Notes under the pieces: generated by a model
The model's database searches: none
Told to the model about the DNA's origin: nothing
What the model saw: only the letters and a program-made list of their open reading frames with translations
In this document: positions 2,726 through 47,059 of the stretch, one piece after another
How positions within the stretch are numbered: position 1 is the stretch's first letter
Layout of the letters: each line of letters starts with the position of its first letter
Program-made: the position numbers and the translations under genes
IMG/VR virus record: IMGVR_UViG_3300031972_000834
Coordinates: 1-48,155 of that record
Strand: one strand, 5' to 3'
Length of the DNA stretch: 48,155 bases
DNA from: a virus

Positions 2726-5700
2726 CTTAAATTTGCTAATCTTTGAGCAATATCCATATTAGCCATATTACCGCCTAAAAGATTTAAACTTGGCGTTGTT
2801 TGATTTTGAGCTGACAAGTTAGCAGGTTCAATTTCTGGTAGATCTAAAGCTATAGGAGACTTTGGATCAACTCCTTGATTTTCAAATTGTCTTCGCCCAT
2901 ATTCTGAAGTGTCTCTTAAAAAATCTGTCGGTAATTGAGTGCTTACAGCTCTTCTGATTGGCTGACCAACGCCAAGAGCTTCATACAAACTTGGCAATTG
3001 ATTTTTTAGAAAAACTTTGTCTGGTATTTCTCCAGCCAGCCATTTTACAAAACCTGGCAAACCTAAAAGTCGAGATAAATTGCTTAATATTGTAAATTGC
3101 GGCAGTGCTTGTAAAGGTCTGAATATAATATTAAAAAGCAGCCCTTGAGTAAAAAGACCTCCGCCTTGAGCCGCTCTTTCTCCGCCAACAAGAAACTTAG
3201 ATCTACTTGCAGCTTTCTTTAATAAGTCGTACTGAGCATCTCCAAAAGTTTCTTTTAATACTGCTTGACCATATCCATCTGGAGAAAGTATTGCTTTATA
3301 AAAGCCATCATCTTTAAATAATTTTTCAATTGCGTCGTCTCCTGGATTAACATACTGGTTAAGTATTTTTCTCATTGCCGCAGCTTGAAACTCTTTAAAC
3401 TCAACTGATTCTGGTCCTAGCAATTGTTTTACGGCTGCTATGTCTTCTGAGTTACCAGATTTAAACAAAGTGTTAACTATATTTTCCGAATCAATTGTTC
3501 CGTTTTGTATTTTTTTAAAAACATCTATTTTTGCTATTTCGTCTAACTCAGACTGAGCCGCTGTTTTAAAGTTTAAATCTTCTATTACGTTATCTACGTT
3601 AGAAGTTTTAGCAAGTAAATCATCGAGCTCGTCTACAGTACCAACATTTACAATTTGATCTGCTTCTCTTAAAGATTTTACTAATTCTCTTTTACCAGTA
3701 GGCCCGAACAAAGTATCAGCAGTTGTACCATATCCTTCGATTGTATTGGCTATTTTTTTATAATCAACAATATCAGAGCCTTTCTGGACTCTAGTTACAA
3801 TGTCTCTTAAAAATTCTTTTTGCAGCACACCTTTAACTTGTTCTTTGTTTTTAAATACTGGATCTTTTACGTCTATTTCTGCATCTGCCAATATTTTTCT
3901 TTGCGTATCGCTAAACTCTAAAGCGCTTCTTGTTGGAGCTTTTGATCTATCAACTCTACCAGAACCTTCAAATCTTTGTTTTCTAAATGCTGCTGTATCT
4001 ACATCTAAAGTATCAAGCAATCTTTTAACATTCTCGCCGTTGTTTTTCTTTAAAACTACTTGAGTTAATATTTTATCTATATTTAGCCCGCCTGCTGCCA
4101 CATCATTCAAAAGATCTTTATACAAACCTTGGTCAAACGCTTCCATGCCTTTTGAATAAAAATCATTTGCAATTCTAATAGACTGCATTTGAGCCTGTAA
4201 TTTTCTAGGATCTATTTTTTTGTTTTCGGTTATATCGTCAATAACTTTGTTGTAATAATCATTCTCTCTTTGAAGTGCATCTGCTTCTTTTTTTGCTATT
4301 TGTTTTAAAGATACAAAATCAAACCTGTTTTGAATTTGATTAAAATCGTTTTTAATATTTTCTATTTCTTCAACTTTTGCTCTTCTCGCAATTTCAGTTT
4401 CTTCAAGCAAACGTCTGTTTTGTTGGTTTGCAAAAGTAGTAAGCTCAAACTCTCTGCTAACTAAATCTGTATATTTATTTTGATCTTCTATTATTTTTAC
4501 CAGCTCTGTTTCTGCTTTTGTTAAAGAAGATCTTAATGCGCCTAACTCTTTTGATATTTCTTCTGGTTGATTTTGTAAAAGTTCTTTTAGAAGGTTTTGA
4601 TTAGTTTGGTTTGATCGTGATGGGCTAGCAACGTCTTGTATTAGTTCGTAAATATTTTTATTAGAAACTTCATTTAAGTTTTCTATTTTTAATATATTTT
4701 TTTCTATTCCTTGTATTGATTCTTCCCTGCTTTGTTTAAAAAATTGTTGCAACTGATTAAAAGCAATATCATCCCCATCTTCTAATCTTCTTAAACTTTC
4801 ATCTATAATGCTGATAAGCTTGCTTCTGTCAGTAGAACCAATAGAAGCAAACTCTTTGGAAGATTCTGTAATTCTATTAGCAGATGCTAGTCCGCTTCTT
4901 AGCTCTAGCAATTCTTTTAAACTTAAATTTGCGCTAGTTTTATCTAATAGTTTTTGCAAGTCTGCTAACTGAGCGCCAGCTTTGTCTACATTTAATTTTC
5001 CTGAAGCATCTAATGCATCTCCAGCAATAATTCTTATATATTCTTTTAAAGGGGTTGAGTCAATAAACTTTGCTTGTATGCCAAGTCCTGGACCGCCAAA
5101 AGCTTCAAAAGATAAAATATCATCTGATAGATTTCTTGGTATTTCAAAAAACTTACCAGTAGACTCATACAGTTTGCTTTGAGCGTCATACCAAGCGTTG
5201 TAACCTTGAGCTGTTAAAATTCTTATTTCTTCTCCAGCTTGAGTTGTAGCGGATTCTGCAAAAGCGTCAAAATCTCCTAACACATCATCCATCATTTTTC
5301 TGACGTTGCTGTTAGCCGTATTTAATTTTTTTTGGCTTTCTCTAAATTTTCTTGAAATTGATGCGCTGAGTTTTTTACCAGCAGCAACATCTGCGGCGCT
5401 GTCGCCAAAACCAGTTTTTATAAGATCGTCTATTTCTTTATCAAACCCAGCTGTTAAATCGTTGGTTGATCTAAAAACATTTTTAACATCCGTTGCCAAA
5501 ACATTTCTTACGCCTATTTTTCTGCCTTGATACTTAGATACAGTCTCTGCAATCCCTTGCAACAAACCAGTTAAAGGACTGTCCATCGCCGCTAGTGCTA
5601 CAGCACCTTTGTATCTTTTTCCTGTTTTAGAATCTACCACTCCAGTTTTAGAAATAGCAGATGCCATCTTTAAATCTTCAGCTCCTAACTTGCCTTTACT

Positions 5701-6420: not shown

Positions 6421-7775
6421 TATGTTATAACGTCTGATCTATCCGCAATACTTATCTCATCTTCATCAACGGGAGCCGAGCCAGTATTAAAATTTCTTTT
6501 TAACATTCTTAAATTTGGAAATACATCCATATATTCAGCTTCGTACACGTTTATTAAATTTCTTGCATCTGTAGAAGATTTGGCTAAAGTTGCCTCTGTA
6601 AGCCTTAATAGATCTATTATTTCGGCTTTACTTGATGTTGCTTTTTGAATGTTTCCTAATAAATCTTTAATTAAAGCTCTGTCTGCATCTGAAATAGTTT
6701 TTCCTTTTTCATCAAGTAAAGCTTGAACCATTCTTGCTTCAAGAAACTTACCAATATTTGCTGCTTTAGAAGCAGAATTTAAATCTAAGTCTGTTCCAGT
6801 AAAACCTTGGGCTCTTGTAACTAATCTATTCATCCAGCCTTGTAAACCAGTTGTATTATTTGTAGCTAAAAGTTGTCTTAAAGTTTTTATTTCATTAAGC
6901 ATTATATTGTTGCCTTCTACATCTCCAGCTGCTTTATTGTATTCTTTTATAATTGCATTTTTATCAGTTGTTTTTAAAGCGCCTTTTTCTTTTTCCTCTC
7001 TTAGTTTCTTTAAAAATTCTTCTTGTGACAATGCTTCTGCGTCATCTGCTTTCATTACAGCATCTGAAGAATTAGCTGCTCCAATTGCAATGGCGTCTGC
7101 AAGATTGTCTGTTCCTGCGGCTGCCTTAGACATCTCGTTAAGAAAAATGCCTATATTTCTATTTTTTCTTTCTTGTCTTTTTTGTATAAAAACTTCTCTG
7201 TTTTGTTTATCTTTTAGATCATATGCTTCTAAAATAGAGTTTATAGATTCAATTTCTTTTTTTGTTTTTTCTTCGTTATTTTTTTTAACAACCTTTGGAT
7301 CTTTGCTTGTTGTTGAAGATGGAGAAGATTTAGTTTGAACAGACTCTAAGGCTTCCTGTATGGATACAGGTATTTCTTCTTGAGCTAGTTCATCATTATC
7401 TAATAACAAGTCTGCTCCTACTAAACCAGTTGCCGCTCCTAATGGAGTTTTTGCAGCTTTGTAAAGTTTTCTACCAACATTTAAACTTTTAAGATAACTA
7501 GCAGCAGGCAGGCCAATTCCAGTTATGCCTAATGCTGCAATTCCGTAATCTATAGGATCTGTATAATCAAAAAGAAGACTTCCTTTTCCTCCTACTAAAC
7601 CAGGTTTTTCCGCTTGGTTTATTTTATCAATCTCTCTTTGCAGTTGCGCTCTTATTTGATCTGCATTTAAACCTGTTGTATTGATTCCTAATTTAGCAGC
7701 ATAATCAATAACTTCCTGTGGAATTTGTTGAGCCACATCTCCAGCTGCAAACATTCTTCGTTGTAATACATTCAC
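6420..7775 (-). CDS. Internal virion or ejection protein
   Basis: A 451-residue protein. A hydrophobic Gly/Ala stretch (IDYGIAALGITGIGLPAASYL, then GAATGLVGADLLL) lies around residues 75-125. A long charged, helix-prone region rich in Lys, Glu and Asn follows. This mix of a membrane-active segment plus coiled coil is typical of podovirus internal proteins that leave the capsid with the DNA. It sits between two similar genes: stop/start overlap downstream at 6420 and a 1-base gap upstream at 7776. Function is by analogy only. Confidence 0.5.
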   Translation of the reverse strand: MNVLQRRMFAAGDVAQQIPQEVIDYAAKLGINTTGLNADQIRAQLQREIDKINQAEKPGLVGGKGSLLFDYTDPIDYGIAALGITGIGLPAASYLKSLNVGRKLYKAAKTPLGAATGLVGADLLLDNDELAQEEIPVSIQEALESVQTKSSPSSTTSKDPKVVKKNNEEKTKKEIESINSILEAYDLKDKQNREVFIQKRQERKNRNIGIFLNEMSKAAAGTDNLADAIAIGAANSSDAVMKADDAEALSQEEFLKKLREEKEKGALKTTDKNAIIKEYNKAAGDVEGNNIMLNEIKTLRQLLATNNTTGLQGWMNRLVTRAQGFTGTDLDLNSASKAANIGKFLEARMVQALLDEKGKTISDADRALIKDLLGNIQKATSSKAEIIDLLRLTEATLAKSSTDARNLINVYEAEYMDVFPNLRMLKRNFNTGSAPVDEDEISIADRSDVIT

Positions 7776-9249: not shown

Positions 9250-10706
9250 TATATTGCCTCAAAAATATTCATTAACTCACGCATGTTTTTTACACCTTTT
9301 TCGCGTGAAGCGCTACCACCTTTAATAAGCTCGATACCAGATTTAGTTTTGTTAACGTCAAATGCGCCTGCGCCACGTGTAGCTTTAGCAGTCATTACAA
9401 ACTCACCATCACTTAACATCGCGGGTATATCATCTGAAGTGCCAGTACCTGGTCCAGCGGATTCTCCGCCTTCACGCATGTCTAGTTCACCAATCGTTGT
9501 TGCCAAACCACCTTGATTAAAATATTTTCTAGCCTCACCGCCGTAAGCAAAATCTAAAGCTACAGGTGCAGGAGCTAAACCAAAGTCTGCTCTACTACCG
9601 CCTGTTCCTAAGTTTTGAGCCATTTGGTATCTGCCCAATTGATCCATTGTTACTTTAGGAGTTTCTGCTATACCACCCATTCTTTCTTTAGATGCGTCGT
9701 AAGCAAGCTTGCCAGCTAGTCCTGCAAGACCCATAAGCCCGAGGTTGCCGCCAAACATACCGCCGCCCCCGCCTTGACCTGGAGAGCCGCCAATTGGAGC
9801 TCCGCTGCCTCCATAAAAATCTTGCAATCCGCTTGCGCCACCTAGACCAACAGCATCTCCAATAGATTTTATAAATTGAGGAGTTTCACGTCCAAAAAAG
9901 CTTCCTATTCCTTGATTGCTTAAATTAGCTTGAGGTGTATTAATTATATTTCCAGATCGATCCATCACGCCCATATCAACTAACTGTTGATAATCGTAAG
10001 TGTTTCCAGCAGCATCTACATACATGCCGTCTGCACCTATTTCTAATCCCTCTGGAACTTGAGGTCCGCCAAACAGACTGCCAATACCCTTTTTTACGTT
10101 GCCAAAAAGACCAACTTTGTCTTGCCCTGGAAGTACAAACTCTTTTACGTTGCCAAATATTCCAACGCCGTCTGCACCTGGGGTAATAAATTCTTTTGCT
10201 CTAGAGAAAAAACTGCCTGTATTTGCTGGAGTTGATCCTCCTGTTGGAGTTCCCCCAAAGAGCTTGCTACCTCCGTAACTTAAAGCGCCACCCAACAAAG
10301 CTTCTTTTGTTGATAAGCCTGAAGCTTTACCAGCAACTGTTGTTAAGGCTGCTTTAGCTAAAGGGCCAACGCCAGGAATAAAATTAATTGCTATAGGAGC
10401 AACTTTTTTAACTATCTTTTTAGCTTTTTTCCAAATTTTAGATAAAAATCCAAACTCAGGTAGACCCGTTAAAGGGTTTAAATCCATACTGCCATTTCCA
10501 ACTAAGAATTGATTAGGATCAATCCCGTACTTAGAAATAGATTTTTGAATTGCTTGTTTTAAAAGTGGGTTATCGCGTAAAGCTTGAGCTGGGACGATCA
10601 TCTCATCTGGCGCTACGTGAGCCAAATAAGTATCTTCGTTTCTGCCTAAAGCTGCAATTCCTTCTAGTTGCTGTCTCTGTCCGTTGTTTAGCATACCTTG
10701 TTCCAT
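9249..10706 (-). CDS. Virion protein with DGEFVM motif and internal repeat
   Basis: A 485-residue protein. Early residues hold DEMIVPAQALRDNPLLKQAI. Near the end, DDIPAMLSDGEFVMTAKATRGAG is a related motif often seen at the ends of phage tape-measure or internal proteins. A short direct repeat (PGADGVGIFGNVKEF, then PGQDKVGLFGNVKKG) lies around residues 170-205, and a Gly-rich stretch around 300-330. A basic hydrophobic segment (KIWKKAKKIVKKVAPIAINFIPGVGPLAKAAL, residues about 90-120) could be membrane active. The likely role is internal or tail-tube related. It overlaps the gene below at its last base. Confidence 0.5.
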   Translation of the reverse strand: MEQGMLNNGQRQQLEGIAALGRNEDTYLAHVAPDEMIVPAQALRDNPLLKQAIQKSISKYGIDPNQFLVGNGSMDLNPLTGLPEFGFLSKIWKKAKKIVKKVAPIAINFIPGVGPLAKAALTTVAGKASGLSTKEALLGGALSYGGSKLFGGTPTGGSTPANTGSFFSRAKEFITPGADGVGIFGNVKEFVLPGQDKVGLFGNVKKGIGSLFGGPQVPEGLEIGADGMYVDAAGNTYDYQQLVDMGVMDRSGNIINTPQANLSNQGIGSFFGRETPQFIKSIGDAVGLGGASGLQDFYGGSGAPIGGSPGQGGGGGMFGGNLGLMGLAGLAGKLAYDASKERMGGIAETPKVTMDQLGRYQMAQNLGTGGSRADFGLAPAPVALDFAYGGEARKYFNQGGLATTIGELDMREGGESAGPGTGTSDDIPAMLSDGEFVMTAKATRGAGAFDVNKTKSGIELIKGGSASREKGVKNMRELMNIFEAI

Positions 10707-42177: not shown

Positions 42178-42313
42178 ATTTTATTTTCCTATAAATGCCC
42201 TATCGGGTAAGTTCATTATACATATATTTTCTACAAATAGTAGACAATAATTAATTATTTCTATACTATTAATAAATAACAAATTTATTACCAGCTTGGA
42301 GACTGAAATAAAA
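42178..42313. promoter_or_regulatory. Divergent early promoter region with dyads
   Basis: Plus strand: TAGACA and TACTAT 17 bases apart can serve the small-gene chain. Minus strand: a perfect TATAAT lies at 42225-42230, without a good -35. The dyad TCTAC-AAATA-GTAGA (about 42229-42244) and the 14-base palindrome AATAATTAATTATT (about 42246-42260) are candidate operators for a shared regulator. Confidence 0.6.
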
Positions 42314-42532
42314 ATGAATATTGAACAAAAAATAATAGAGCAAATTTTTGACACTCTAATGAAAAATGACAAGTACCCCGATCATTTCAATTTTGCTGGT
42401 GATCTTAGATACGACCATTGGCTAGATACAAAACCCGACAACCCGACGATTAGTTTAGTTGTTGAGAAAGCTGGACGCCCAACGACTTACAAAATTTCAA
42501 TTAACGAGGTAAAAAATGAAATCATTACTTAG
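42314..42532 (+). CDS. Small acidic protein, head of the plus-strand chain
   Basis: A 72-residue protein. ATG at 42314 is preferred over an upstream TTG, with GGAG about a dozen bases upstream. EKIIEQIFDTLMKNDKYPDHFNFAGDLRYDHWLDTKPDNPTISLVVEKAGRPTTYKISINEVK reads helix plus beta hairpin. Not recognised. 17-base overlap with the next gene. Confidence 0.6.
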   Translation: MNIEQKIIEQIFDTLMKNDKYPDHFNFAGDLRYDHWLDTKPDNPTISLVVEKAGRPTTYKISINEVKNEIIT

Positions 42533-43010
42533 AACAATCTTAGACGAGTGCGAAAAAAATAAACTCATGTATCGAGCCAATGCTTATGATCTCTGGAACA
42601 ATGGATGCGAAGATATGATTGAGCCTTGGGGGTATGACTTCAAAGCTTTAGCCGAAACTATGCAGGCTTTCGAGTTAGACGAACGCCTTGGTAATATCCA
42701 AATTATCCCCGAGAGCCAAGTAAAAACTCATGCCGAACTTATAAAAGAAATCAGATTCAATGCTTTAGAAAATTGTTTTTCAGAGTATGAGGAACATTTT
42801 AAAAAATGTAGTGAAGATGATCTTATCCAAGAGTTCCCCGACGAATACTACTCTGGTCATATGTGGATTATGTGGACAAATTACGGGGGCAACGAACACC
42901 TAGATTGTTTTACCGATTGGACAACAAGTCTGGACAAATACTTTGATGTAAGCAAGTTAACCAATGAATGGGAAGATGAGTACAACAAATTCAGATTGGG
43001 ATTGATCTAA
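42516..43010 (+). CDS. Acidic protein of unknown function
   Basis: A 164-residue, Asp/Glu/Trp-rich protein (NGCEDMIEPWGYDFKALAETMQAFELDERLGN, DEYYSGHMWIMWTNYGGNEHLDCFTDWTTSLDKYFDVS). No motif recognised. It starts in an overlap and its stop overlaps the next ATG by one base, so translation is coupled. Confidence 0.6.
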   Translation: MKSLLRTILDECEKNKLMYRANAYDLWNNGCEDMIEPWGYDFKALAETMQAFELDERLGNIQIIPESQVKTHAELIKEIRFNALENCFSEYEEHFKKCSEDDLIQEFPDEYYSGHMWIMWTNYGGNEHLDCFTDWTTSLDKYFDVSKLTNEWEDEYNKFRLGLI

Positions 43011-43357
43011 TGAAACCTAAAAAAACAATAACAGTAAAATTAAATTATCATTTTGTTGATTGGATAGTTCAAGAATATTCAGCAAGTGAATTAGTAGATG
43101 CTTTAAAAGGAGAAAATTCTATTGAAGATTTTGCGATTAGTATTATGGGAGATTTTATATATATCGAACATATTAATAATTGGGAAGAAATAAAACCTAA
43201 GTTAAACGAATCTTATTATAACGGACGCTATGAATTTGTAAGTAAAGACAAAGGTGTTCCTTTTGGTGATTGGTGTGAAGAAAAAGATGAGTTTGTTCCT
43301 TTTTCCGAAACTGATAAATACCAAATTTTTTATATCGTTGAGGAGAAGGCCAAATGA
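43010..43357 (+). CDS. Small acidic protein
   Basis: A 115-residue protein. KKTITVKLNYHFVDWIVQEYSASELVDALKGENSIEDFAISIMGDFIYIEHI reads as beta-alpha with acidic loops; ends EEKAK. ATGA overlap with the next gene. Not recognised. Confidence 0.55.
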   Translation: MKPKKTITVKLNYHFVDWIVQEYSASELVDALKGENSIEDFAISIMGDFIYIEHINNWEEIKPKLNESYYNGRYEFVSKDKGVPFGDWCEEKDEFVPFSETDKYQIFYIVEEKAK

Positions 43358-43635
43358 TTATTTTTACAGTCAATACCCAAGACGGGGAAAACATATATAC
43401 AGAGTGGAGTTATTACCAAAATTACACCTCAAAACAATACGAGGACGGAAAAATAACAGATGCAGATTTGCTATCTGAATTTTGCGGGACTGAATTTACA
43501 GATGATGATTTGTTTGACAAAGATGACCCGAAACATGATTACAAATATTGGAATAATGATACATCTTTAGTTTGGATTGATTCAGTTAAAGAAATAACCC
43601 CAGAACATTTAGAAATAATCCAGAGGTACTTATGA
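43354..43635 (+). CDS. Small acidic protein
   Basis: A 93-residue protein: MIIFTVNTQDGENIYTEWSYYQNYTSKQYEDG, FCGTEFTDDDLFDKDDP, then a helical end. Strongly acidic. GGAG is present before the start. Unknown role; possibly a DNA mimic or anti-host peptide by charge only. Confidence 0.55.
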   Translation: MIIFTVNTQDGENIYTEWSYYQNYTSKQYEDGKITDADLLSEFCGTEFTDDDLFDKDDPKHDYKYWNNDTSLVWIDSVKEITPEHLEIIQRYL

Positions 43636-43832
43636 AAATAAAATTATATGTTGTTGAGAAATTCTATTACCAAATAGAAATGAAAGATGTTGAGGATTTT
43701 GAAGATGCTCAAGAAAAGTTTTACGACGATTCTCAAAAAATAATGCAAGAGCAAGTTCCAGATAGATCAGATTGGAATGATTATGTTATAGAAGTTTACG
43801 ATAGAGATTATCAAGAATGGGAGAGAACTTAA
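43632..43832 (+). CDS. Small acidic protein
   Basis: A 66-residue protein (KIKLYVVEKFYYQIEMKDVEDFEDAQEKFYDDSQKIMQEQ). Beta-alpha-like with an acidic helix. Ends WERT, encoded by GGGAGAGAACTTAATATG, which serves as ribosome site for the next gene. Confidence 0.55.
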   Translation: MKIKLYVVEKFYYQIEMKDVEDFEDAQEKFYDDSQKIMQEQVPDRSDWNDYVIEVYDRDYQEWERT

Positions 43833-43833
43833 T

Positions 43834-44394
43834 ATGTGCGAAGTAATAGAAACAATAAAAACCAAGAACTATGTTGCAGAAATTATCAATGACGAGGACT
43901 GCTATAACCCTAGAAAAGATTACAGTAGTTTAGGAACGCTAATAGCATTTCATTCTCGGTATGATTTATCCGACAACGACAATTGGGATAAAGAAGAATT
44001 AATATCTTATGTAGAGCAAGATGATGTCTTAGCCTTGCCCGTATATATGTATGAGCATTCCCAAATATCACTTTCAACAAATGCATTTTCTTGCAAATGG
44101 GATAGTGGTCAAATAGGTTATATCTTTGTTTCTTACGAAGATATTATCAAAGAATACGGAAATCTTGATATTGAAACTGCTACCAAGGTTCTTGAGTATG
44201 AAATCAAAGAATATTCCCTATACCTTAACGGGGAATGTTATGGCTACATTATTTATGCAAGGGACAAATATGACACTTTATTACTTGATTCCCAAGATCA
44301 TCTAGAGTCTTGTTTTGGATTTATAGGCAGGGATTATGTAGAAGAAGAAGCCAAATACATTCTCAAAGACTTAGAGCAAGAGGAGAGAACTTAA
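43834..44394 (+). CDS. Conserved phage/plasmid protein (WDSGQIG motif)
   Basis: A 186-residue protein with LPVYMYEHSQISLSTNAFSCKWDSGQIGYIFVSYEDIIKEYG, GECYGYIIY and DHLESCFGFIG. This order (YxYxHSxxxxxxxxFxCxWDSGQxGxI ... CxGFxG) is a family I recall from phages and plasmids with no known function. It carries an acidic C-terminus EERT that encodes the next ribosome site. Confidence 0.72.
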   Translation: MCEVIETIKTKNYVAEIINDEDCYNPRKDYSSLGTLIAFHSRYDLSDNDNWDKEELISYVEQDDVLALPVYMYEHSQISLSTNAFSCKWDSGQIGYIFVSYEDIIKEYGNLDIETATKVLEYEIKEYSLYLNGECYGYIIYARDKYDTLLLDSQDHLESCFGFIGRDYVEEEAKYILKDLEQEERT

Positions 44395-44591
44395 TGGATA
44401 TCGGCGACCTATGTGTCCATTGTAGACAAGACACCTCGTTTGGAAGTGGTAGGTTTGTTAACAGATACCCAGTCTTTGGATTGGAAAATCTAGATACAGG
44501 ACAAGAAGAAAATGGCTATTGCTGTGCTGAATGTGAAGAAAAGTTTTATGCAGATAACCCGATAGAGGAGACCGAAGATGAAAACATTTAA
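44394..44591 (+). CDS. Small Cys4 zinc-finger-like protein
   Basis: A 65-residue protein. C7-x2-C10 and C44-x2-C47 (LCVHC and CCAEC, with an extra C43) suggest a treble-clef or ribbon site. Start ATG is TAATG-linked to the previous stop. It ends in ETEDENI; the bases for ETED are the first copy of the repeated junction. Possibly a regulator or nuclease cofactor. Confidence 0.6.
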   Translation: MDIGDLCVHCRQDTSFGSGRFVNRYPVFGLENLDTGQEENGYCCAECEEKFYADNPIEETEDENI

Positions 44592-44784
44592 AGTAATTAC
44601 GAAGTGGACAGGCTATTCAGAAATAACTGTTCAAGCTGAAACCGAAGAACAGGCTTTTGATTTAGTTGAGGAGAAAAACTACGATCCTAACAAAGAAGTC
44701 TTAACAGGCAGCGGACTTGATTATGGTTATGAAGATGAAGAAATTGTTGAAGTCAATGAAATTCAGGAGAACGAAAATGAGTAA
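44578..44784 (+). CDS. Small acidic protein in the cassette chain
   Basis: A 68-residue protein: FKVITKWTGYSEITVQAETEEQAFDLVEEKNYDP reads as beta-beta-alpha, followed by acidic YEDEEIVEVNEIQENENE. It starts within the previous gene's end, using the first cassette copy. Function unknown. Confidence 0.6.
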   Translation: MKTFKVITKWTGYSEITVQAETEEQAFDLVEEKNYDPNKEVLTGSGLDYGYEDEEIVEVNEIQENENE

Positions 44785-44977
44785 TAGACTAGTGGGATTT
44801 TTACAAGATGACTTAAAAGAAATAGATAATTCTTTTGAAAATATTAAAAATCTTATAGAAAATAAAATTTACTATGAAAATAGAGGTGATGTAGAAAATC
44901 ATATTGAAAGAATAGATCAATTTATTTCTTATTGGCAACAACATTCAAAAAGTTTAAAGGAGACCGAAGATGAATAA
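44777..44977 (+). CDS. Small helical acidic protein in the cassette chain
   Basis: A 66-residue protein with start inside the second cassette. RLVGFLQDDLKEIDNSFENIKNLIENKIYYENRGDVENHIERIDQFISYWQQHSKSL is wholly helical. Ends KETEDE, encoding the next cassette. Function unknown. Confidence 0.6.
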   Translation: MSNRLVGFLQDDLKEIDNSFENIKNLIENKIYYENRGDVENHIERIDQFISYWQQHSKSLKETEDE

Positions 44978-45134
44978 AGCAGAAATGATTGAGAATATAG
45001 AAACGATAATTAAAGCCAATAAAGATAATGATAACTGCTCTGTATTTTGGTTAGCAGATATGATTCAAGAAGTAGTTACAAATTGCGATTGTGGAACTAA
45101 TCCAGATTTAAAGGAGAGCGAAGATGAAAGTTAA
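44970..45134 (+). CDS. 54-residue protein in the cassette chain
   Basis: A short gene starting in the third cassette and ending ESEDES. NKAEMIENIETIIKANKDNDNCSVFWLADMIQEVVTNCDCGTNPD; three Cys near the end (TNCDCG and NCSV). Clear start/stop context makes it real. Function unknown. Confidence 0.6.
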   Translation: MNKAEMIENIETIIKANKDNDNCSVFWLADMIQEVVTNCDCGTNPDLKESEDES

Positions 45135-45348
45135 AGAAGTAAAAATAAATTGGCAAGAGGAAGGACTAGATACCTATTATAAAAGAATGGGCTATCCAAA
45201 AAAAGTATGGAAAGACAACGAGGGTATGCCCTTTGGTATTGCTCTGTTTAATGCTGACGATACTTATTTAGAAGAAGAACTAGATATTGAATGGTTCTCT
45301 ACTGAAGAAGAACGAGATCAAATGTTTTCGGAGAACGAAGATGAGTAA
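45124..45348 (+). CDS. Small acidic protein in the cassette chain
   Basis: A 74-residue protein starting in the fourth cassette. KVKEVKINWQEEGLDTYYKRMGYPKKVWKDNEGMPFGIALFNADDTYLEEELDIEWFSTEEERDQMF, mixed alpha/beta, acidic, ending ENEDE, which encodes the fifth cassette. Function unknown. Confidence 0.6.
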   Translation: MKVKEVKINWQEEGLDTYYKRMGYPKKVWKDNEGMPFGIALFNADDTYLEEELDIEWFSTEEERDQMFSENEDE

Positions 45349-45574
45349 TTATTCATATCAAGAAATTGTAGAGGACGGCATATCTGTTTGTGCGTCTTGC
45401 GGTAATGCAAATATTAATTTCAATAAACCCCGACCAAATAAAAACTTAGATATGTCATATTGTTTTGACTGTAGTTATGCCGAGGGAACTATGACTTGTA
45501 TGCCAGATGACGAATATTTTTATCCAGACGCTCAAATAACTTACAAAAAATTACAGGATACCGAAGATGAGTAA
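45341..45574 (+). CDS. Small zinc-ribbon-like protein in the cassette chain
   Basis: A 77-residue protein from the fifth cassette. C17-x2-C20 (VCASCGN) and C41-x2-C44 (YCFDC) fit a zinc ribbon. Ends DTEDE, encoding the sixth cassette. Could bind nucleic acid or a host protein. Confidence 0.62.
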   Translation: MSNYSYQEIVEDGISVCASCGNANINFNKPRPNKNLDMSYCFDCSYAEGTMTCMPDDEYFYPDAQITYKKLQDTEDE

Positions 45575-45749
45575 ACCAGATTACAACAATATTGCAGTAT
45601 GGGATTTACTTTTTTATAGATGTGATGATGACGGCAACGAACTCAAAGATGAGAATGGAAAAGTAATTACCTATAGAGCAGAAACAAATTGCGAGTATCT
45701 AGCAGAAGGATTAGATATTGACGACCTAGAGGAGAACGAAGATGAATGA
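45567..45749 (+). CDS. Small acidic protein in the cassette chain
   Basis: A 60-residue protein from the sixth cassette. NNIAVWDLLFYRCDDDGNELKDENGKVITYRAETNCEYLAEGLDIDD; ends ENEDE for the seventh cassette. Mostly beta and acidic. Function unknown. Confidence 0.6.
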   Translation: MSKPDYNNIAVWDLLFYRCDDDGNELKDENGKVITYRAETNCEYLAEGLDIDDLEENEDE

Positions 45750-45852
45750 TTTATTTGATAAGTTTTTAAACAGTTTAAATCTGGAAGATGAGTCCGATTA
45801 CGAGCTAGCAGAACGTATGGAACAATTTAAAAAGGAGAACGAAGATGAGTAA
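45742..45852 (+). CDS. 36-residue acidic peptide in the cassette chain
   Basis: A very short gene starting in the seventh cassette and ending ENEDE in the eighth. NDLFDKFLNSLNLEDESDYELAERMEQFKK, probably one helix. The cassette makes the assignment credible. Function unknown. Confidence 0.55.
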   Translation: MNDLFDKFLNSLNLEDESDYELAERMEQFKKENEDE

Positions 45853-45937
45853 TTTTTTAGAAGTAATTGTTGAGCTTACGACTATACTAATGATTGCGAC
45901 AATTTTATATATAATGATAACCGAAGATGAGGACTAA
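45845..45937 (+). CDS. 30-residue single-helix membrane peptide, end of chain
   Basis: Starts in the eighth cassette. FLEVIVELTTILMIATILYIMI is a membrane helix; ends ITEDED. The TEDE codons are a degenerate ninth cassette that no longer starts a same-strand gene. Its stop overlaps the convergent terminase-like gene stop by two bases. Confidence 0.55.
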   Translation: MSNFLEVIVELTTILMIATILYIMITEDED

Positions 45938-45945
45938 TCCTCGTC
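45926..45945. terminator. Hairpin formed by the two convergent gene ends
   Basis: GATGAGGA, loop CTAA, TCCTCGTC forms an 8-base stem with one G-U pair. It straddles both stop codons and is followed shortly by TTTT on the plus strand. It may act as a bidirectional terminator or RNA stabiliser encoded by two acidic tails. Confidence 0.5.
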
Positions 45946-46590
45946 CTCGTCTTTTGCTTCCTCTGGTATAGGTCTGGCCTTCTTAGATTTCTTGACAATG
46001 GTTTCTTCAACAATTTCCCCGACTTCTATTTCCCCCGATCCCGACAAATCCTCAATTTCGATTCCCGACTTATGTTCTATAGCCTGCTTACCTAACAGAT
46101 CTGCTAGCCTTCTTTCTACCTCGCCCCGACTCATTTGATCTACCTTCCCATGCAATACTTCCCGACGATCAACAATAAGGCCCCCGACTTTTAAAAGTAA
46201 ATTCTGCGCGTTAATCGCCGCTGTAAAATTACCTGCACTCCAGGCATCATCTCTAAGCTTATACAAATCCTCAACTGCGCCCTCATGCGTAAGCTCAAAT
46301 TTCTTTTTCGCTTCCGCCATCAATCTTTCATACTCTCGATACACATGCTGATATTTGCCGTTAGGCCCCATGTATCTGCTAACAACCTTTGGATTCTTAA
46401 AACCTGCCTTCTTTGCAGCTTCCGCAAAAGTCAGCGTAGGATCGTTGACTGCATTCCAAACTAACAAACGCTGACGCTTGGTTAGATTTTTTTCGTTATG
46501 ATTCATATACTCAACTGGCATATCTTCTGCATCTGCAAGTGTAGGCTCAACCTTCACTTTCTGTCTGATCCTCGATTCGTCCTTGCTCAT
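45934..46590 (-). CDS. Terminase small-subunit-like protein
   Basis: A 218-residue protein. RQRLLVWNAVNDPTLTFAEAAKKAGFKNPKVVSRYMGPNG (residues about 38-78) is a helix-turn-helix DNA-binding segment, and YERLMAEAKKKFELTHEGAVEDLYKLRDDAWSAGNFTAAINAQNLLLKVGGLIVDRREVLHG resembles the oligomerisation region of Terminase_2-type small subunits. It should recognise phage DNA for packaging. It lies about 10 kb from terL and on the same strand. AAGGTGAGAG precedes ATG. The acidic tail EAKDEDED overlaps the convergent gene. Confidence 0.72.
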   Translation of the reverse strand: MSKDESRIRQKVKVEPTLADAEDMPVEYMNHNEKNLTKRQRLLVWNAVNDPTLTFAEAAKKAGFKNPKVVSRYMGPNGKYQHVYREYERLMAEAKKKFELTHEGAVEDLYKLRDDAWSAGNFTAAINAQNLLLKVGGLIVDRREVLHGKVDQMSRGEVERRLADLLGKQAIEHKSGIEIEDLSGSGEIEVGEIVEETIVKKSKKARPIPEEAKDEDED

Positions 46591-46717
46591 CTCTCACCTT
46601 ATAGCTAATTAGCGTTCCGTTAAAATACCTAACTAATTCTACTACATCTGGTCTTTCTAGCAAATCGATAACTTCTGGCGGTAAAACTTCCCGACATTTC
46701 TTAACTAATTTATACAT
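46547..46717 (-). CDS. Small protein upstream of terminase small-subunit-like gene
   Basis: A 56-residue protein; ATG at 46717 is preferred because GGAG sits 6 bases upstream. YKLVKKCREVLPPEVIDLLERPDVVELVRYFNGTLISYKVRD looks helical. It ends 44 bases inside the next gene. The TGACAAAA array lies just upstream. Confidence 0.55.
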   Translation of the reverse strand: MYKLVKKCREVLPPEVIDLLERPDVVELVRYFNGTLISYKVRDEQGRIEDQTESEG

Positions 46718-47059
46718 ATCTTCTCCTACTTTTGTCAGAGCTCTTGACAAAACTCTGACAAAACTATCAGATGCTCTGAAACTACTACTAATACAATAAA
46801 TAATTATATATATATTATTATATATATACCTATATATATACTTTTGTCATACTTTTCCTTACCCCCCCTTATATTTTACAATTATGAGGGGAATATAAGG
46901 GTTATTTAAGGGGTGTCCTGACAATATGACAAAACGCCTAAACCCTACTACTATCACCTTTACAGCTGTCAGAGACTTCTGACACTCTGACAAAACTAAG
47001 CCAAATCGCGCGTGATTCGACCCAAAAGGGGGTACTTTTGTCAAAGTTTTCTGACAAAA
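46718..47059. promoter_or_regulatory. Non-coding region with eight TGACAAAA sites and AT-rich core
   Basis: Perfect TGACAAAA or its complement at 46730-46737, 46745-46752, 46756-46763, 46842-46849, 46927-46934, 46988-46995, 47036-47043 and 47052-47059. The first two and last two face each other across 7 and 8 bases. Between the clusters lie alternating TA runs (about 46802-46840) and a C7/GGGG stretch. Fits an operator array or replication-origin iterons. No gene is supported here. Confidence 0.75.

Follow-up and report, generated by a model that had tools for sequence, protein, structure and literature searches.

A conserved, helically phased array of octamer sites upstream of the terminase small subunit gene of a marine phage group is a candidate packaging-initiation site

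What is the function of a dense array of identical 8-mers in the non-coding DNA beside a terminase gene? The question is raised by a 48,155-base virus record, classed linear, which was analysed at its full length and is called the window here. The record is incomplete, with the primase gene at its left end lacking its N-terminal part, and its large terminase is ~60% identical to those of the pelagiphages HTVC027P and HTVC023P and of phage 023Pt_psg01. An earlier note on this DNA described eight perfect copies of TGACAAAA, five in plus and three in minus orientation, with facing pairs at both ends and TA-rich DNA inside, and proposed that they form an operator array or the iterons of a replication origin. 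The positions of all eight sites, of the facing pairs (46730/46745 and 47036/47052) and of the TA-rich DNA (46795–46841) were confirmed, and are given here together with the neighbouring genes.

45934–46590, minus strand: terS, terminase small subunit homologue, 218 aa, N-terminal helix-turn-helix
46547–46717, minus strand: orf67, small gene between the array and terS, ATG at 46717
46730–46737, minus strand: site h, perfect copy of TGACAAAA
46745–46752, plus strand: site g, perfect copy of TGACAAAA
46756–46763, plus strand: site f, perfect copy of TGACAAAA, in tandem with g at 11 bp
46795–46841, no strand: AT-rich core of TA repeats, between sites f and e
46842–46849, minus strand: site e, perfect copy of TGACAAAA
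46862–46868, minus strand (the terS strand): run of seven G (G7), in the same stretch as the array
46919: TGACAATA, degenerate companion of site d
46927–46934, plus strand: site d, perfect copy of TGACAAAA
46967–46984, no strand: degenerate facing pair TGTCAGAGACTTCTGACA
46967 and 46980: degenerate sites inside the array, TGTCAGAG and TGACACTC, respectively
46988–46995, plus strand: site c, perfect copy of TGACAAAA
47036–47043, minus strand: site b, perfect copy of TGACAAAA
47052–47059, plus strand: site a, perfect copy of TGACAAAA
47060–47335, minus strand: orf91, small conserved gene, its stop codon abutting the outer end of the array

The window holds 11 copies of TGACAAAA in 48 kb, eight of which lie within 330 bp of non-coding DNA between orf91 on one side and orf67 plus terS on the other. 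Their layout is - 15 + 11 + 86 - 85 + 61 + 48 - 16 + (signs for orientation, numbers for the bp between sites), so that a tandem spacing of 11 bp is confined to the f/g pair, the other spacings being 15, 86, 85, 61, 48 and 16 bp. Sites h and g face each other as a 23-bp dyad, TTTTGTCA-N7-TGACAAAA, immediately 5' of the orf67 ribosome-binding site, and sites a and b face each other as a 24-bp dyad at the opposite end. The degenerate companion of site d is a perfect second site in many relatives, at a spacing of 8 bp. Dinucleotide shuffles of the window averaged 4.35 copies of TGACAAAA, with fewer than 11 in each of 100 shuffles; moreover, TGACAAAA is the most clustered 8-mer of the window, the runner-up having 6 copies in 330 bp. 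A chance origin of the array was rejected on the basis of these shuffle counts, the clustering and the conservation described below. The runner-up 8-mer, AACCCGAA, has all six of its copies inside 330 bp, from 40785 of the window.

The gene beside the array is, by sequence comparison, a terminase small subunit (TerS) homologue. In tblastn searches its 218-aa product matched the annotated terminase small subunits of HTVC027P (E 3e-8) and HTVC023P (E 5e-7), and a profile of the TerS family matched the SF6 and Pam5 TerS chains in the PDB (E 1e-4 to 6e-4). Pfam Terminase_2 was matched by 4 of 14 family members, the window protein not being among them. Three helices are predicted at positions 38–73, as expected of a helix-turn-helix; an AlphaFold model of the window protein is of low confidence (mean pLDDT 61), and a fold search of the PDB with it gave no significant match. 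The earlier note had called this neighbour terminase-like, which was right as to the terminase and can now be narrowed to its small subunit. Neither orf67 nor orf91 has a family match. Elsewhere in the neighbourhood, the run of small plus-strand genes at 42296–45940 shares an almost invariant stop/start junction, GGAGAACGAAGATGA, which gives one protein after another a C-terminal ENEDE or TEDE.

The array is conserved together with its place. A TerS search of viral contigs yielded 80 loci, 71 of them with enough upstream DNA, and all 71 carry 7–11 perfect sites within ~540 bp upstream of terS, giving the synteny in relatives that the earlier note had proposed to check. Site order and orientations are constant within each clade, and most of these loci have no further TGACAAAA copy outside the array; in whole records of relatives (20–53 kb) the 8-mer is likewise concentrated upstream of terS. 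Across 20 representatives, identity is 91% in site columns and 66% in other columns. Loci with at least seven sites number 92, some contigs being counted under two locus names, and fall into 30 spacing signatures. Clade C is more distant (TerS identity 45–56%). All 49 of its loci with upstream DNA retain one or more perfect sites in the 800 bp before terS, usually at −138 to −165 and surrounded by degenerate sites containing TGACA or TGTCA; orf67 was not seen at the corresponding place. The 8-mer is not common elsewhere in the window and its relatives and the array is strongly conserved, the opposite of what the earlier note had named as counting against its readings. The array is thus a genuine cis-element, phased and strongly conserved within a group of marine phages.

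Outside this group, a direct search with the array DNA among isolated phages gave one weak match only. No TGACAAAA array was seen in the regions read of CRP-901/902 and Loktanella phage pCB2051-A, which are relatives by their primase and, for CRP-901/902, also by TerL. A pattern of three sites had one match in cellular genomes, at 34–70 of an archaeal extrachromosomal element from Pyrobaculum oguniense (CP003317), at its very start, and perhaps by chance. Among the papers listed by a literature search for TGACAAAA, none described such an array.

The spacing of the sites points to how they are used. Between homologous sites of different lineages, lengths differ by 9–12 or 21–22 bp, with intervals changing from 48 to 57/58/59 and 69, from 86 to 74 and 64, from 84 to 74/73 and from 77/78 to 88. 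Counted once per inferred event, the net length changes are 10, 21, 12, 22, 10 and 11 bp, with a best period of 10.5 bp (p ~0.0002 versus uniform lengths); intervals were assigned to homologous sites and events by hand after seeing the data, and intervals affected by site loss (e.g. 147 versus 162 bp), which do not fit, were excluded. The control, the distance from array to terS, showed no such periodicity. Since the length changes step by ~10.5 or 21 bp, the sites probably act together as one nucleoprotein complex on one face of the helix. This phasing is the best evidence for a joint complex and is silent on which protein binds. In a wedge model of intrinsic curvature, whose phased A-tract control misbehaved, the window array lay at the 95th–98th percentile for arcs of 125–315 bp and at the 87th for 84 bp. 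The HTVC023P array was the maximum of its locus in the same model; because of the control, neither result was given weight.

Our best explanation, which we hold at a probability of about one half, is that the array binds TerS and serves both to initiate packaging, as a pac-like site, and to repress the terS operon. The phage's own TerS, encoded directly downstream, would assemble on the array, with the helix-turn-helix domains held in a ring and each contacting one TGACAAAA site, and the contacts would fall on one face of a bent 330-bp segment. The TerS complex would show the large terminase where on the concatemer to make the first packaging cut and, because it would cover the start of the orf67–terS operon, it would also repress terS transcription. 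The terminase-like protein had been named in the earlier note as a possible binder, alongside the adjacent small protein, and is now the best-supported candidate; the place upstream of terS, a role in packaging, the phasing and the change of motif between lineages had escaped that note.

In line with pac-type sites, the array lies directly upstream of terS, it consists of short repeated elements conserved within the phage group, and its neighbour encodes a TerS with a predicted DNA-binding helix-turn-helix. The repeat-containing pac site of SPP1 overlaps promoters, a ribosome-binding site and the beginning of gene 1, and SPP1 TerS bound there down-regulates the terS operon (PMC6316719, PMC4737164). 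The window resembles the SPP1/SF6 system (TerS gp1; PDB 2CMP, 3ZQP/3ZQQ, 4ZC3) in having repeated elements at the start of terS and a TerS with a related N-terminal helix-turn-helix, and the repression of the operon by TerS binding in SPP1/SF6 is the role proposed here for the window TerS. In contrast to the few repeats of SPP1/SF6, the window-type array has 8–11 near-identical 8-mers in both orientations, with an AT-rich core, and lies wholly upstream of terS; by analogy, it would be a more strictly sequence-defined version of such a site. Turnover of the repeats has a parallel too, as the boxA repeats of SPP1 are absent from SF6, which has a different repeat pair (PMC4737164).

Other lineages carry different motifs at the same position. 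Among HTVC023P relatives, whose TerS is ~30% identical, 50 of 63 loci have at least two copies of CTAGGAAA at −270 to −30 of terS, also in tandem at 8 and 11 bp, and no TGACAAAA array was found in HTVC023P and these relatives. HTVC023P (MN698239) therefore shares with the window a terS homologue and a conserved short-repeat array (8/11 bp tandem) 100–270 bp upstream, but differs from it in the motif, CTAGGAAA(A), in its mostly single orientation and in having fewer sites; this array was found here, and no earlier description appeared in the literature searched. Pattern scans that ignored gene position, but themselves selected for the TGACAAAA motif, gave arrays upstream of terS or terS-like genes in two unrelated families. 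In one (L431), the array's small gene overlaps the large terminase gene and itself has no family match; in the other (L364/L372), the terS-like genes match a terminase small subunit family weakly. At the same position, the podovirus ctNMl277, which is related to L431 (54% identity in the small gene), carries an array of GTTTACA. Such turnover at a fixed position is easier to reconcile with a binder that the phage encodes and that evolves along with its site, for which TerS is the simplest candidate, than with a host factor. More tentatively, and with rather less than even odds, TerS lineages may read the packaging start through large, sequence-specific phased arrays whose 8-mer differs by lineage (TGACAAAA, CTAGGAAAA, possibly GTTTACA), packaging specificity evolving by coordinated turnover of the whole array and of the TerS recognition helix. 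Recognition of this kind would differ from the weak, shape-only recognition proposed for SF6.

Two of these loci hold more than one array. In ctNMl277 (MW202483), GTTTACA and ACTACCAA arrays lie at 4636–5400 of the locus, upstream of the terS-like gene, and include all 11 GTTTACA copies of the 12.4-kb locus; the record annotates a DnaA-like helix-turn-helix gene ~2.8 kb from the main array. L364 has two tandem TGTGACAAAAC arrays (11/12 bp) at 6898–6966 and 9933–9997, one directly upstream of the portal gene and the other upstream of the terS-like gene.

Several observations weigh against TerS as the binder. Unrelated TerS families would not be expected to share TGACAAAA if each evolves its own specificity, though the scan had itself picked out that motif, and the DNA-binding domain of SF6 TerS has little sequence preference, a ring of helix-turn-helix domains having been proposed to select bent DNA (PMC4737164). 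The repeats upstream of terS in HTVC027P and 023Pt_psg01 are looser and of a different kind (CAAGC- or GAGC-type), packaging leaves the AT-rich core unexplained, and one array, that of L310 discussed below, adjoins a primase-helicase gene on a contig in which terS was not found. Furthermore, no clear genome terminus emerges at the array from the positions of contig ends. In clades A/B and C, contig starts show a mild excess 0–250 bp upstream of terS (12/75) that HTVC023P relatives do not share, and contig ends are in larger excess 1.0–1.25 kb downstream of the terS start (window 45340–45590 and the equivalent stretch of relatives), in a zone of repeated gene junctions, where assembly breaks are the probable cause. 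These counts do not support a cos-like physical genome end at the array, the mild upstream excess being insufficient. Terminal overlaps allowed genomes of the HTVC023P type to be circularised (PMC9599517), a result that agrees with headful packaging but is no proof of it. Runs of at least five G on the terS strand, in or beside the array, occur at 22/44 loci of clade A, 20/27 of clade B and 40/49 of clade C; they might signal cleavage or just belong to the site.

Of the earlier proposals, the array itself stands as real, single-copy, non-coding and conserved, and both the origin and the operator keep a share of the probability. As an origin, the array would offer its TGACAAAA sites as iterons to a phage initiator encoded elsewhere (the DUF3987 primase-helicase, for instance, or a small protein that this contig lacks), with the TA-rich core as the unwinding element. 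Phage P4 ori is an iteron origin with repeated sites next to an AT-rich element, and the window sites likewise flank such an element (46795–46841), with a helical phasing that would fit an initiator complex. The same architecture recurs in a replication module on the 11.6-kb contig L310, where nine sites (- 14 + 11 + 11 + 87 - 54 + 77 - 19 + 18 +), with an AT-rich core, a C-run after the central site and an end facing pair, sit with a Prim-Pol/DUF3987 gene on one side and small genes on the other; a related DUF3987 protein is also encoded by the window phage. A search for L310 relatives found none, and this unit either is a replication origin or lies where replication genes give way to late genes, with terS off the end of the contig. 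As a precedent, SPP1 oriR combines repeats with an AT-rich element among late genes (PMC6316719), so place alone cannot decide against an origin. However, the repeats of several TerS lineages are tied to terS and not to the primase, which is at least 5 kb from the array in the window group and ~9 kb away in HTVC023P, and the L364/L372 arrays lack the AT-rich core. While the window array resembles SPP1 oriL/oriR in its repeated sites next to an AT-rich element, it is linked to terS and has no adjacent initiator gene; the earlier note had correctly remarked on this, none being recognised among the annotated neighbours on this incomplete contig. The skew profile of the window follows gene direction (coding strand) and is uninformative on an origin. 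Because of the layout and location of the L310 array we retain an origin as a somewhat unlikely explanation.

Less probable still is a role as operator only, in which some transcription factor of phage or host, but not TerS, would time orf67–terS expression with no direct part in packaging. The inner site pair directly upstream of the orf67 ribosome-binding site would suit such a role, as would the second L364 array directly upstream of the portal gene and the small ORF beside the L310 array, which is ribbon-helix-helix-like by eye and has no Pfam match. The array's TGTCA repeats 11 bp apart also recall PhoB boxes, in which TGTCA repeats lie 11 bp apart. Yet 8–11 sites over 330 bp, in both orientations and with long-range phasing, go beyond the usual operator, and promoter-like matches were not above those in shuffles. 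Direct TGTCA repeats with an 11-bp period, the basic unit of a PhoB box, occur in the window at one pair only (f/g), the window array has facing pairs, and the different motif at the same place in the HTVC023P group speaks against a host factor. A scan of cellular genome contigs found the three-site pattern in a single record. A PhoB-like host transcription factor is accordingly not favoured, given the spacing and the other motif of the HTVC023P group. We consider it highly improbable that the array is a partition site or another DNA-handling site (centromere-like, or a recombination enhancer) bound by some other phage protein. Short heptad or octad arrays in both orientations do occur at partition sites of some plasmids, but the annotated part of the window genes includes no ParA/ParB or integrase, and the single cellular record with the three-site pattern argues against a temperate or plasmid-like life.

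How small terminases distinguish phage from host DNA is still poorly understood; in the model system SF6, binding is weak and almost independent of sequence. If the array is a TerS site, its strict 8-mers, their phasing over ~330 bp and the contrasting HTVC023P motif would provide a natural experiment on the TerS recognition code in an abundant ocean phage group, and packaging sites could be found from sequence alone. If it is an origin, it would be a strongly conserved one for HTVC023P-like podoviruses, for which no described origin was found in the literature searched. On either reading, the array offers a well-defined element on which binding can be tested.

Finally, the lone dyad TTTTGTCA-N7-TGACAAAA is common in unrelated viral contigs outside the terS group. 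Among the facing-pair matches there, 48 of 71 have a spacer of exactly N7, though N5–N10 was allowed. Since this dyad recurs outside the group, the facing-pair pattern alone is not specific, and the lone N7 dyad looks like the operator of some other regulator, unrelated to the arrays.
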